Shown here: piece after piece, positions 53,690 to 55,839 of the stretch | Numbering within the stretch: the stretch's first letter is position 1 | Layout of the letters: every line of letters starts with the position of its first letter | Notes under the pieces: model-generated | Told to the model about the DNA's origin: nothing | What the model saw: the letters and a program-made list of their open reading frames with translations, nothing else | The model's database searches: none | Position numbers and translations under genes: made by a program | IMG/VR virus record: IMGVR_UViG_3300023084_000023 | Coordinates: 1-55,839 of that record | Reading direction: 5' to 3' (one strand) | DNA length: 55,839 bases | Source of the DNA: a virus

Positions 53690-53800
53690 TTATTGTTTCT
53701 CCATAATAAGTTCTTGCGTGAATTTATTTTTCACAATAGCATTCCATTGGTTAAGGTTTAAAGAGGTTAAATTACCTCTATCATTATATATCTCTAACCA
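53690..53800 (-). pseudogene. Short protein-like frame with no start codon (broken small gene?)
   Basis: On the minus strand, 36 codons from TGG (53800) to TAA (53692-53690) read as WLEIYNDRGNLTSLNLNQ, then WNAIVKNKFTQELIMEKQ, which looks like real protein. The codon upstream of the preceding AGA is a stop, and there is no in-frame ATG near the beginning. An ATG nearby (MRETQRCRDG) is in another frame, and a one-base shift near 53801 would join the two. It could be a decayed gene, a sequencing error, or chance. Confidence 0.25.
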
Positions 53801-53834
53801 TCTCTACAACGTTGCGTTTCACGCATTTTTAAAA

Positions 53835-53859
53835 AATGGGGGGCGTTGCACCCCCCATT
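53835..53859 (-). terminator. Strong terminator after the 82-aa gene
   Basis: A perfect 9-bp stem AATGGGGGG (53835-53843) with CCCCCCATT (53851-53859) closes a 7-nt loop. On the minus strand it is followed by a T-run. It lies five bases beyond the stop of the 53864-54112 gene and may also act weakly on the other strand. Confidence 0.88.
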
Positions 53860-53863
53860 AAAA

Positions 53864-54112
53864 TTACTCTTTAGTTGAAATAAAAGTATACAACTCTTGA
53901 GCCTTTTTCATGATGTCTTGAGGGGCAGGCATTTCTGGTTTCATGTGTTGTGTATGCTGAACCAATTCCTCAACACTTTTGTTCCATGTCTCTGCAGTCG
54001 CATTCAAAGTTTGCCAATATGTATCCATTGCCATATGGTAACTTTGTTCAGACATATCTTTTGCCATTTTTAAAACTTCTAGTCTAATTTCAAATGGATT
54101 TTTATTACTCAT
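53864..54112 (-). CDS. Small helical protein, conserved-looking in marine T4-likes (82 aa)
   Basis: I take ATG 54112 (MSNKNPFEIRLEVLKMAKD) as the start, seven bases behind AGGAG. An ATG one codon earlier and a longer upstream frame are less well placed. The protein is one helical domain with Trp/Gln/His-rich middle (YWQTLNATAETWNKS) and ends MKKAQELYTFISTKE. Similar short proteins with the same SNKNPFEIR opening occur in marine T4-like phages; the function is not known to me. It is followed by a strong terminator and lies in the block with the secreted protein and tmRNA. Confidence 0.75.
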   Translation of the reverse strand: MSNKNPFEIRLEVLKMAKDMSEQSYHMAMDTYWQTLNATAETWNKSVEELVQHTQHMKPEMPAPQDIMKKAQELYTFISTKE

Positions 54113-54191
54113 CATATTTCTCCTTTTTTGTGTGATGTGTGTAATTAGCAACTTTATAGGAAGTTACCACCTTTATTATATAGTACAAAAA

Positions 54192-54539
54192 TTAGAATGT
54201 AAAATTAATTCCTACTTTTGCATCTTCATATTCAAACTCTTCACTCGCTTCAATATTACTGAAAAGTGAAAGTTGTGGAGACACTGCATATGAAATACCT
54301 AAGTTAACACCATCAAAATTAATTGTGTCTGATGCTACATTAGAATCATATGAGAAGTCTGCCCATGGACGCAAAACAAATCCTTGTGGAAGCGCCATTG
54401 TATATCCCAGTTCAGATGTAAAATTTTCATTTTCTACACTATACTCAACTTGGCCATCTACATAACCTTTAATGCCTTCTGCCATTGCAGACGAACATAA
54501 AAAAACCGCCGAAGCGGCTCCGAATAAAAACTTTGTCAT
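54192..54539 (-). CDS. Secreted outer-membrane beta-barrel-like protein (115 aa)
   Basis: This 115-aa protein has a clear Sec signal peptide (MTKFLFGAASAVFLCSSAMA, cleavage predicted after residue 20). The mature part alternates polar and hydrophobic residues in about six to eight strands (IKGYVDGQVEYSV, FTSELGYTMAL, VLRPWADFSY, VNLGISYAV). It ends GINFTF, with the C-terminal Phe typical of barrels inserted by the Bam machinery. It is about 95 residues after cleavage, near the lower size limit for a barrel. Phage proteins of this kind are uncommon; it could alter the host surface (superinfection exclusion) or act in lysis. Both are inference. Its ribosome site lies just after the tmRNA coding piece. 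Confidence 0.75.
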   Translation of the reverse strand: MTKFLFGAASAVFLCSSAMAEGIKGYVDGQVEYSVENENFTSELGYTMALPQGFVLRPWADFSYDSNVASDTINFDGVNLGISYAVSPQLSLFSNIEASEEFEYEDAKVGINFTF

Positions 54540-54555
54540 TTATTAAATCCTTTTA

Positions 54556-54886
54556 CTATGACTTTGGGCCCGTTTGGTAACAAGGTGGAACCCATACCCC
54601 GCTGATCATGCTGCTAGAGCAAACTCAGGTGCAAAGTTATCGTTTGCGTTTAGTTTTGTTCGACCGAATATCGTAGGTCAACACGGTAATCTACTCTCAT
54701 CTCTACACACCTGTCGATCCTAGTTCGCCCCCATCAAAGATACACTATAGCTTTTTCCCCTAACGAACATTGCCTAGGATTGTCTAGCGAGCCAGCCACG
54801 GCTGTTTTGTTAATAATGTATCTTTGGTGGAGGCGTTGGGTACTGCCCCCAAGTCCAGTATGTATGTTGAATCGTATCAACAATTA
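54556..54886 (-). ncRNA. ssrA: Circularly permuted (two-piece) tmRNA of alphaproteobacterial type
   Basis: Read on the minus strand, the acceptor piece (about 54886-54825) comes first and ends CGCCTCCACCA (54835-54825), with a T-arm-like TTGGG/CCCAA hairpin. A 92-nt intervening segment (54824-54733) follows, then the coding piece starting GGGGGCG at 54732. GGGGGCG pairs with CGCCTCC to form the acceptor stem, and GGATCGACAGG is the conserved D-region. The tag frame at 54647-54606 encodes ANDNFAPEFALAA plus stop, inside the conserved AACGCAAACGATAAC context. CAGGTGTGT (54713-54705) can pair with ATACATACTG (54865-54856) with one bulge, joining the pieces. Intervening-segment ends form a CAAAGATACA/TGTATCTTTG stem. 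tmRNA with SmpB rescues stalled ribosomes and tags products for ClpXP. The outer ends of the two pieces are approximate. Confidence 0.92.
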
Positions 54887-54892
54887 CAATTG

Positions 54893-54923
54893 TATTTATA
54901 CACTATTCTTTTCTTTTTGTCAA
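54893..54923 (-). promoter_or_regulatory. Dual early/late promoter candidate for the tmRNA
   Basis: TTGACA (54923-54918) and TATAAA (54900-54895) are separated by 17 nt on the minus strand, a good sigma70 promoter. The -10 is also part of an exact TATAAATA late box (54900-54893). Start would fall at about 54886, just before the acceptor piece. The -35 lies in the end of the holin candidate. Confidence 0.8.
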
Positions 54924-55100
54924 GCAAAAAATAATATAAAAAATATAATGCATTAATACAACACCAAAAAACTCATACATTACTATATTTTTTTCTGGTG
55001 TAAATATCATTAAACTTTTTCCAAATAAACCTAAGAGGAATAGAAGGATAAAGTAAGAAGTCATGGGGATACTTAAAAAATACCCCCATTTTAAATTCAT
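54903..55100 (-). CDS. Holin candidate, two membrane segments (65 aa)
   Basis: This 65-aa protein has two strongly hydrophobic segments (about 10-28, SIPMTSYFILLFLLGLFG, and about 40-60, MYEFFGVVLMHYIFYIIFCL) and ends in the basic KRKE. Size, topology and position suggest a class II holin: its ATG overlaps the endolysin stop (ATGA). There is no Shine-Dalgarno, so translation is probably coupled to the endolysin. An alternative start at Met13 lies inside a possible hairpin (ATGGGG 55063-55068 with CCCCAT 55084-55089). Very AT-rich, unlike the endolysin. Confidence 0.6.
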   Translation of the reverse strand: MNLKWGYFLSIPMTSYFILLFLLGLFGKSLMIFTPEKNIVMYEFFGVVLMHYIFYIIFCLTKRKE

Positions 55101-55552
55101 ACCATTAGCTCAAAGTGTGGAGCATCAATAAATGGGCGTCTTCCCTGAGAACGTCTTAAATCAACGTAGGCGTTCATGGCATCTTCCATGGAACCATCCC
55201 ACTCTCTAATGTCATCAATGTGCCAGGCTGCGCCCCAGCGGAGTGCCACACCCTCTTCGATTGCGGCCGCCTTCATTGCATCGGCAACTTCATCATACAC
55301 ATTGATTTCCCAGACGCCACGGCCTCCAACATAGGCCATTAAGTCTACTGCAAGTCCATCAAGATGTTTACTCTTCATTGTTTGACTTGCGCCCTTTGCA
55401 ACTAAAGCCTCTTGTTCTTCGAGCGTTCTTAAACCTTGAATCACTCCAAAATCGACCTCAGTCAATTCGATGGCACGGCTGACAACTCTAACCATGTCAT
55501 CATGAACACCTTCTAATTTAGAAAGTGATCTATTCGATAATTTAAAAGCCAT
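55097..55552 (-). CDS. Endolysin, M15 L-Ala-D-Glu peptidase type (151 aa)
   Basis: This 151-aa protein has the M15C/VanY-like endolysin motifs. SKHLDGLAVD gives zinc ligands H63 and D70, and DAPHFEL gives H146 with D143 as the likely catalytic acid. VIQGLRTLEEQEALVAKGAS is the typical substrate-loop region. The length suits globular endolysins of this class (T5 Lys type). It lacks a signal peptide, so release through a holin is expected, and the overlapping downstream gene fits. Its GC is about 49% by hand count over 55141-55500, far above the surrounding sequence, suggesting recent acquisition. Confidence 0.92.
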   Translation of the reverse strand: MAFKLSNRSLSKLEGVHDDMVRVVSRAIELTEVDFGVIQGLRTLEEQEALVAKGASQTMKSKHLDGLAVDLMAYVGGRGVWEINVYDEVADAMKAAAIEEGVALRWGAAWHIDDIREWDGSMEDAMNAYVDLRRSQGRRPFIDAPHFELMV

Positions 55553-55554
55553 TT

Positions 55555-55839
55555 TTAATCCTTTTCTTTTTCGTTTTCGAAGTTAGTAAATTTAAATGTA
55601 ACGTCATCTGGAGTTAAAGATACGTTATAATCTTGAGTAAAAGAAATATCGGAAGTATCTAAAGTAATACTCATACCATCAGTAATATCCATTCCATCAA
55701 ATGTGATAGAACCTATATCATACTCCCCAGAAAAAACATAATCATTAGAACCAGTAGTCAATGTTATATTTTCTTCTTTTTCTTTTTTAGGAAATGCAAC
55801 AATTTTGGCAGTGTCATCTAAACCATTAAGTCTATTATA
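55555..55839 (-). CDS. C-terminal part of an unknown protein, 5' end outside the window
   Basis: The frame is open from position 55839 to its stop at 55555, giving at least 94 residues without a reliable start inside the window. The visible sequence opens YNRLNGLDDTAKIVAFPKKEK and continues into a beta-rich acidic part with repeated Asp-Ile/Val strands (DIGSITFDGMDITDGMSITLD), ending FENEKEKD. I do not recognise the family. A short TTG-started version (55761) is possible but poorly supported. The endolysin start follows two bases later, so they are co-transcribed. Confidence 0.6.
   Translation of the reverse strand, partial: YNRLNGLDDTAKIVAFPKKEKEENITLTTGSNDYVFSGEYDIGSITFDGMDITDGMSITLDTSDISFTQDYNVSLTPDDVTFKFTNFENEKEKD

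Follow-up and report, generated by a model that had tools for sequence, protein, structure and literature searches.

What does a circularly permuted tmRNA gene do in the genome of a marine phage, and what fills the space between its two pieces? Phage genes of this kind are already known, from Melnitz, a phage with an OM43 host and a two-piece tmRNA, and from other aquatic phages described in 2022, when a count over phage genomes gave 53 two-piece tmRNAs, marine or aquatic in 50 cases (PMC9004378); a 2025 tmRNA database holds 79 phage tmRNA sequences (PMC11915505). Until now such genes have been regarded as housekeeping genes copied from the host. The locus considered here lies in a stretch of 55,839 nt (the window), an IMG/VR virus record that lacks end repeats and is therefore likely a fragment. 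We conclude with considerable confidence that its gene is an intact permuted phage tmRNA serving ribosome rescue, and that the intervening segment (IVS) between its pieces is an exchangeable cargo slot, coding in many sister phages.

The tmRNA gene and its phage context

The minus strand of the window carries, from 54940 to 54563, a complete circularly permuted tmRNA gene of the alphaproteobacterial type (Table 1). A preliminary description, made from the letters of the sequence, had placed such a gene at 54556-54886, which is right to within a few bases, with the promoter just outside; all the elements it named are present, and both Rfam models score over their cut-offs in cmscan, RF04321 tmRNA_permuted at 120.4 bits (cut-off 47, E 5e-23) and RF01849 alpha_tmRNA, the check it had proposed, at 114.9 bits (cut-off 50, E 1e-30). 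ARAGORN independently reports a permuted tmRNA with the tag ANDNFAPEFALAA. The 3' piece terminates in CGCCUCCACCA at 54825, and the acceptor end does lie upstream of GGGGGCG with a matching stem, pairing at 7 of 7 positions including G3:U70, an alanine identity element. The stem-bounded 92-nt segment had likewise been delimited exactly; its 5' end, AAGATACA, folds with its 3' end, TGTATCTT, into a 12-pair terminal stem, and its interior gives no signal of structured RNA (z +0.8). The two mature pieces base-pair in silico when co-folded. With an alanine resume codon, an ANDN start, a hydrophobic LAA end and a stop, the tag has the form of a tmRNA tag, in keeping with the ClpXP-type tag first described.

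Table 1. Coordinates of the features of the window tmRNA locus
Feature	Position	Strand	Basis and remarks
Promoter TTGACA, 17-nt spacer, TATAAATA	54893..54923	-	Sequence; sigma-70 type; putative function
3' tRNA-like piece: helix 2 strand, T arm, acceptor 3' strand CGCCUCC, ACCA end	54825..54887	-	RF04321 positions, co-fold; 5' start predicted
End of 3' tRNA-like piece, CGCCTCCACCA	54835-54825	-	Sequence
IVS, exactly 92 nt, non-coding, with terminal stem	54733..54824	-	Sequence, fold; removal from precursor expected
5' piece: acceptor 5' strand GGGGGCG, D-region, helix 2, mRNA-like domain	54563..54732	-	RF01849 match; 3' end predicted
Acceptor 5' strand GGGGGCG	54732-54726	-	Sequence
Tag reading frame GCAAACGATAACTTTGCACCTGAGTTTGCTCTAGCAGCATGA, giving ANDNFAPEFALAA + stop UGA	54606..54647	-	ARAGORN
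Terminator-like hairpin and T-run, 3' of the tmRNA, within first codons of next ORF	54502..54521	-	Sequence; putative function

Conservation of the tag frame and acceptor stem, on which the preliminary description had staked its claim, is evident in relatives. About 20 related contigs retain the tmRNA at the same place, with mature pieces that are near-invariant and a tag that is invariant, the tag frames showing silent changes (GAG/GAA; stop UGA/UAA). One relative, L371, has the acceptor stem GGGGCUG/CAGCUCC and a T-stem C-G in place of U-A, all compensatory, and another, L255, has a compensatory change in the closing stem of the IVS. Among the matches listed, U70 is present in 196 of the 196 unique permuted genes parsed, G3, unlike U70, having been fixed beforehand by the search pattern, and 207 of 255 viral tags end in LAA, most others ending in two alanines. 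On the viral contig L279 two permuted tmRNA genes were parsed, about 3 kb apart.

These features bear on whether the RNA acts instead as a decoy that competes with or inhibits host tmRNA, like the tag-less tmRNA of mycobacteriophage DS6A. Expression of a tag-less phage form in E. coli does inhibit the cell's own tmRNA (PMC11915505), and no SmpB gene was found in six phage records, some of them fragments; the full tag frame with its stop, the invariance of the tag in relatives despite synonymous changes, and the prevalence of LAA ends among viral tags make such a role highly improbable.

The promoter sequence, which also fits a T4-type late box, is kept in close relatives and in Melnitz. The form TTGACN-N17-TATAAATA precedes 113 of 252 viral permuted tmRNA genes, and 124 have a looser form, where shuffled sequence would give 0.25, all among the matches listed. 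A dedicated and conserved promoter, together with compensatory stem changes and mature pieces that stay near-invariant while the IVS is replaced, would not be expected of a passenger, that is, of a host-derived tmRNA without a phage role, a decaying gene or the remnant of an integration site. tmRNA genes are common integration sites, and only some Melnitz-like phages have the gene (17 of 47 contigs; PMC9004378); no integrase was found among the window genes scanned, in a scan that was not exhaustive, and we give this explanation very little weight.

Downstream, the hairpin at 54502-54521 overlaps the signal-peptide codons of the next ORF and, from its sequence, could both end the tmRNA transcript and attenuate that ORF. 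The product, encoded directly 3' of the tmRNA at 54192-54539 (minus strand), is a protein of 115 aa that has a signal peptide and a porin-like C-terminal Phe and is 80-89% identical in five relatives. It is possibly a phage-encoded outer-membrane protein; its AlphaFold model (pLDDT 44) is too poor to judge. A search for a glutamine riboswitch in window 53800-55600 found none at E up to 1. A match to the sraA sRNA at window 53826-53911 (minus strand), in a G-rich hairpin region, is sub-threshold (33.4 bits, cut-off 56) and probably reflects chance or a terminator.

That the gene is phage-encoded, as first proposed, is borne out by its T4-like neighbours: the window encodes gp6, gp25, gp5 hub/lysozyme, gp53, gp48, gp2, gp19, gp32 and gp59, together with PhoH and an exonuclease, and the virus is a T4-like, Kyanoviridae-related marine phage. 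The closest cultured phages by gp6 are Melnitz (OM43 host) and HTVC008M (SAR11 host), at 37% each. The further suggestion that the permuted form points to the host group is weak. The type of tmRNA does not fix the host, since Melnitz has an alpha-type tmRNA and infects OM43; the bacterial tmRNAs compared reach at best about 70% full mature identity to the window pieces, and an attempt at host assignment among 289 genomes sampled from one bacterial class was abandoned, having yielded no close relative.

The nearest known counterpart is the Melnitz ssrA, also a permuted alpha-type tmRNA in a T4-like marine phage, with the same TTGACA-N17-TATAAATA promoter and the tag ANDNYVPVDYALAA. It differs from the window gene in its 3' glutamine riboswitch (52.8 bits) and in its IVS of 142 nt, which carries an ORF where the 92-nt IVS of the window does not. 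The pelagimyophages HTVC008M and Mosig, which are Pelagibacter phages, share the permuted form in a more compact gene, whose RF04321 span of only 210-215 nt implies that the IVS is small; the HTVC008M tag is ANFNEYALAA. Alpha-type permuted tmRNAs lacking annotation in GenBank were seen in HTVC008M (L003, 2980-3189), RcXuper (L005, 1834-2136) and Phosso (L004, 1530-2132). The alphaproteobacterial permuted tmRNA itself (RF01849, Caulobacter type) shares gene order, acceptor stem, T-loop, D-region and an ANDN...AA tag with the window gene, from which it is set apart by its identity and, as described below, by its IVS.

Exchange of the intervening segment

The viral comparison set comprised about 250 copies of permuted tmRNA genes, at least 248 of them unique, limited to the alpha-type motif and parsed with in-house boundary and ORF scripts; the contigs are mostly metagenome assemblies, and loci with short 3' flanks were excluded from flank and cluster comparisons. 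Sister phages whose mature pieces are 96-100% identical to those of the window have IVSs unrelated to the window's. The window and L256 share 193 nt of mature sequence at 100% identity, and their IVSs are 50% identical against a shuffled baseline of 49 +- 3%. The seven members of the window cluster hold seven unrelated IVSs (39, 64, 73, 74, 92, 103 and 149 nt), placing the window gene among those with an unrelated IVS in relatives whose mature pieces are at least 95% identical. Across the 248 unique viral genes such unrelated IVSs occur within 20 of 31 clusters of at least 95% mature identity, among the matches listed. The converse pattern is also seen: among the matches listed, 17 of 30 shared IVS families (at least 85% identity) include tmRNAs whose mature sequences fall below 80% identity. 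One IVS, of 149 nt, occurs at 90-97% identity in L112, L252, L320 and L360, whose mature parts are only 55-75% identical and between whose contigs blastn finds no flank similarity, and the window IVS recurs at 92% in L326, which has the 3' piece in common at 100% and a diverged mRNA domain. Neither pattern is expected under vertical descent, in which conservation should be stronger in the functional parts. On these sequence comparisons the phage IVS is an exchange hot spot, swapped between genomes.

Exchange may proceed either by crossovers within the universal tRNA-like flanks and the conserved IVS ends, or by site-specific insertion. In the latter case the IVS would be a true mobile element, inserting between the permuted halves without recombination in the flanks. 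In several sharing pairs, indeed, identity extends only 9-11 nt beyond the IVS, stopping on one side at the T-stem, 11 nt before it, or on the other at the tenth base after it, and in pairs of less than 80% mature identity the identical flanks are barely longer than in non-sharing pairs (CCA-side medians of 11-12 nt against 11 nt, GGGG-side medians of 20-22.5 nt against 9-20 nt). The constant terminal stem would also suit such an element; it closes 92% of IVSs against 19% when shuffled, among the matches listed, a frequency as expected if the stem aids processing. However, no recombinase, endonuclease or homing endonuclease was found among the IVS ORFs scanned, and some exchanges carry flanking mature sequence. 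This is so for the window and L326, with their identical 3' piece, and for sharing pairs of 80-90% mature identity, whose flanks are longer (median 39 against 11 nt), so that some exchanges take in mature sequence. For these two reasons recombination in the flanks is favoured, and we regard insertion of a mobile element as a minor possibility. No source for the L374 IVS was found in the rest of its record, among five further phage records or among the named phages.

tmRNA genes with group I introns, some bearing homing-endonuclease genes, have been reported (PMC11915505). They resemble the phage genes in having a removable segment able to carry a protein gene. They are self-splicing, in contrast to the phage IVS, which lies between permuted halves and is expected to undergo tRNA-type processing, and the phage IVS ORFs scanned match no homing endonuclease.

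Micro-ORFs within the segment

The preliminary description had treated the 92-nt segment as a plain spacer. This holds for the window, whose IVS has no ORF of at least 25 aa with an SD and an ATG; it does not hold across relatives, in which the segment is exchangeable and often coding. A sister contig with 98.4% identical mature pieces (L374/L252) has a coding IVS, MNWDWHWISWFKG..., with an SD. An SD with an ATG ORF of at least 25 codons is found in 54% of viral IVSs of at least 95 nt, against 4.9 +- 1.9% when the interiors are shuffled; in the larger set the count is 69 of 128, among the matches listed. Median IVS length is 95 nt in the viral genes and 33 nt in 89 alphaproteobacterial controls, none of which has an SD and ATG ORF, only four of their IVSs reaching 95 nt.

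When the ORFs were grouped by protein similarity, eight groups gave in-frame pN/pS of 0.17-0.42, with 0.41-1.27 in frame +1 and 1.04-4.46 in frame +2, both above the true frame in each group. These values are a guide without a p-value, as some groups pool distant ORFs and pairs are not independent; the largest group joins two related-looking ORF types, and a group merging two unrelated ORFs (141- and 149-nt IVSs; 0.85) and another at 0.72 were not counted. As judged from sequence, the eight groups are clearly under purifying selection, and micro-protein synthesis from IVS ORFs may be inferred.

The ORFs include M(A/H)DVVTYLLLRFVEFGLV..., a small membrane protein, as well as MKNPLVKKISVVMFKLYITWSICADI... 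and MWIYKCDAGTYTEDSFFKLLYVIF...; ten scanned against known families gave no clear match apart from a 68-aa ORF marginally below the Pfam cut-off for DUF2061 (22.3 bits, cut-off 23.1). Differently sized ORFs with stops at -10, -15 and +39 (for example L002, L062, L080, L113, L268 and L454) share a K/R/I-x-Y-L-(S)-G motif, suggesting on sequence a single micro-protein superfamily. Melnitz is the only cultured case with a coding IVS: its ORF, MFKWLSKTRLVVITRDYFRERNRKADAKIPKYLSG... / MFKWLSKTRLVVITRDYF..., falls within the annotated SsrA feature and has no annotation of its own. L135, L141 and L166, from MAGs labelled Euryarchaeota, Muricauda and Opitutia, also have permuted tmRNAs whose IVS ORFs are of phage type; these contigs were rejected as bacterial loci, since such ORFs mark them as probably misbinned phage contigs.

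Might the IVS nevertheless be a neutral spacer that turns over fast, its micro-ORFs fortuitous? The window IVS and many others are non-coding, and the window IVS lacks an interior fold signal. However, drift cannot yield near-identical IVSs in diverged tmRNAs, ORFs with an SD and an ATG are far commoner than in shuffled sequence (54% against 5%), and in-frame pN/pS lies well under that of the shifted frames. Homologues of the L027 IVS ORF, moreover, stand free of any tmRNA in six other contigs at 68-86% protein identity, and five of the six carry a tmRNA with a different IVS. A neutral spacer is thus scarcely likely.

Processing, translation and significance

The preferred reading of an intact tmRNA with an exchangeable cargo slot can be set out as a pathway. 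Transcription would start from TTGACA-N17-TATAAATA as an early sigma-70 promoter, a sequence that also matches a T4-type late box. By analogy with the family, host tRNA-processing enzymes would excise the 92-nt IVS, leaving two pieces held together by the 7-bp acceptor stem and helix 2. Host AlaRS would recognise G3:U70 and presumably charge the RNA with alanine, and host SmpB would be used, because none was found in related phage records. The window RNA would then rescue stalled ribosomes and add ANDNFAPEFALAA for ClpXP, probably to maintain the supply of ribosomes and amino acids during host mRNA degradation. Because the IVS would be cut out, it could be exchanged without harm to the tmRNA, the likeliest route being recombination within the short conserved sequence (about 11 to 30 nt) that borders it at each end. 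A micro-protein gene under purifying selection would occupy the slot in many sister phages; the window IVS carries none.

Many of the ORFs run up to or past the IVS boundary. Among the matches listed, 31 of 98 ATG IVS ORFs stop on UAG at +10, inside the mature 5' piece (GGGGGCGAANUAG), 22 stop on UGA just before the IVS end and 10 stop at +39, the others mainly at -15 and -10. The +10 and +39 stops lie beyond the expected RNase P cut, and maturation and full translation of one transcript would therefore be mutually exclusive. The overlap of stop codons with the mature tmRNA may reflect either regulation or tolerated overlap. We advance only tentatively the idea that the phage IVS is a mobile micro-protein cargo slot whose expression, in one large class, is coupled to tmRNA maturation. 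Under such coupling the ORF would lose its stop codon to RNase P cleavage and become a non-stop message, itself a substrate for rescue and tagging by the tmRNA, so that the micro-protein would be stable only when tmRNA maturation or trans-translation lags. This would resemble the self-sensing circuit of ArfA, with the difference that it would be built into the precursor of the rescue RNA itself.

No prior report of IVS ORFs or of IVS exchange was found in open-access full text, and both provisionally appear new. The IVS slot marks out where new phage proteins can be sought and is a natural example of gene exchange confined between tRNA-like sequences. Through the ORFs that end inside the mature tmRNA, its processing may be linked to translation in a way open to direct test, for which Melnitz, being cultured, could be used.
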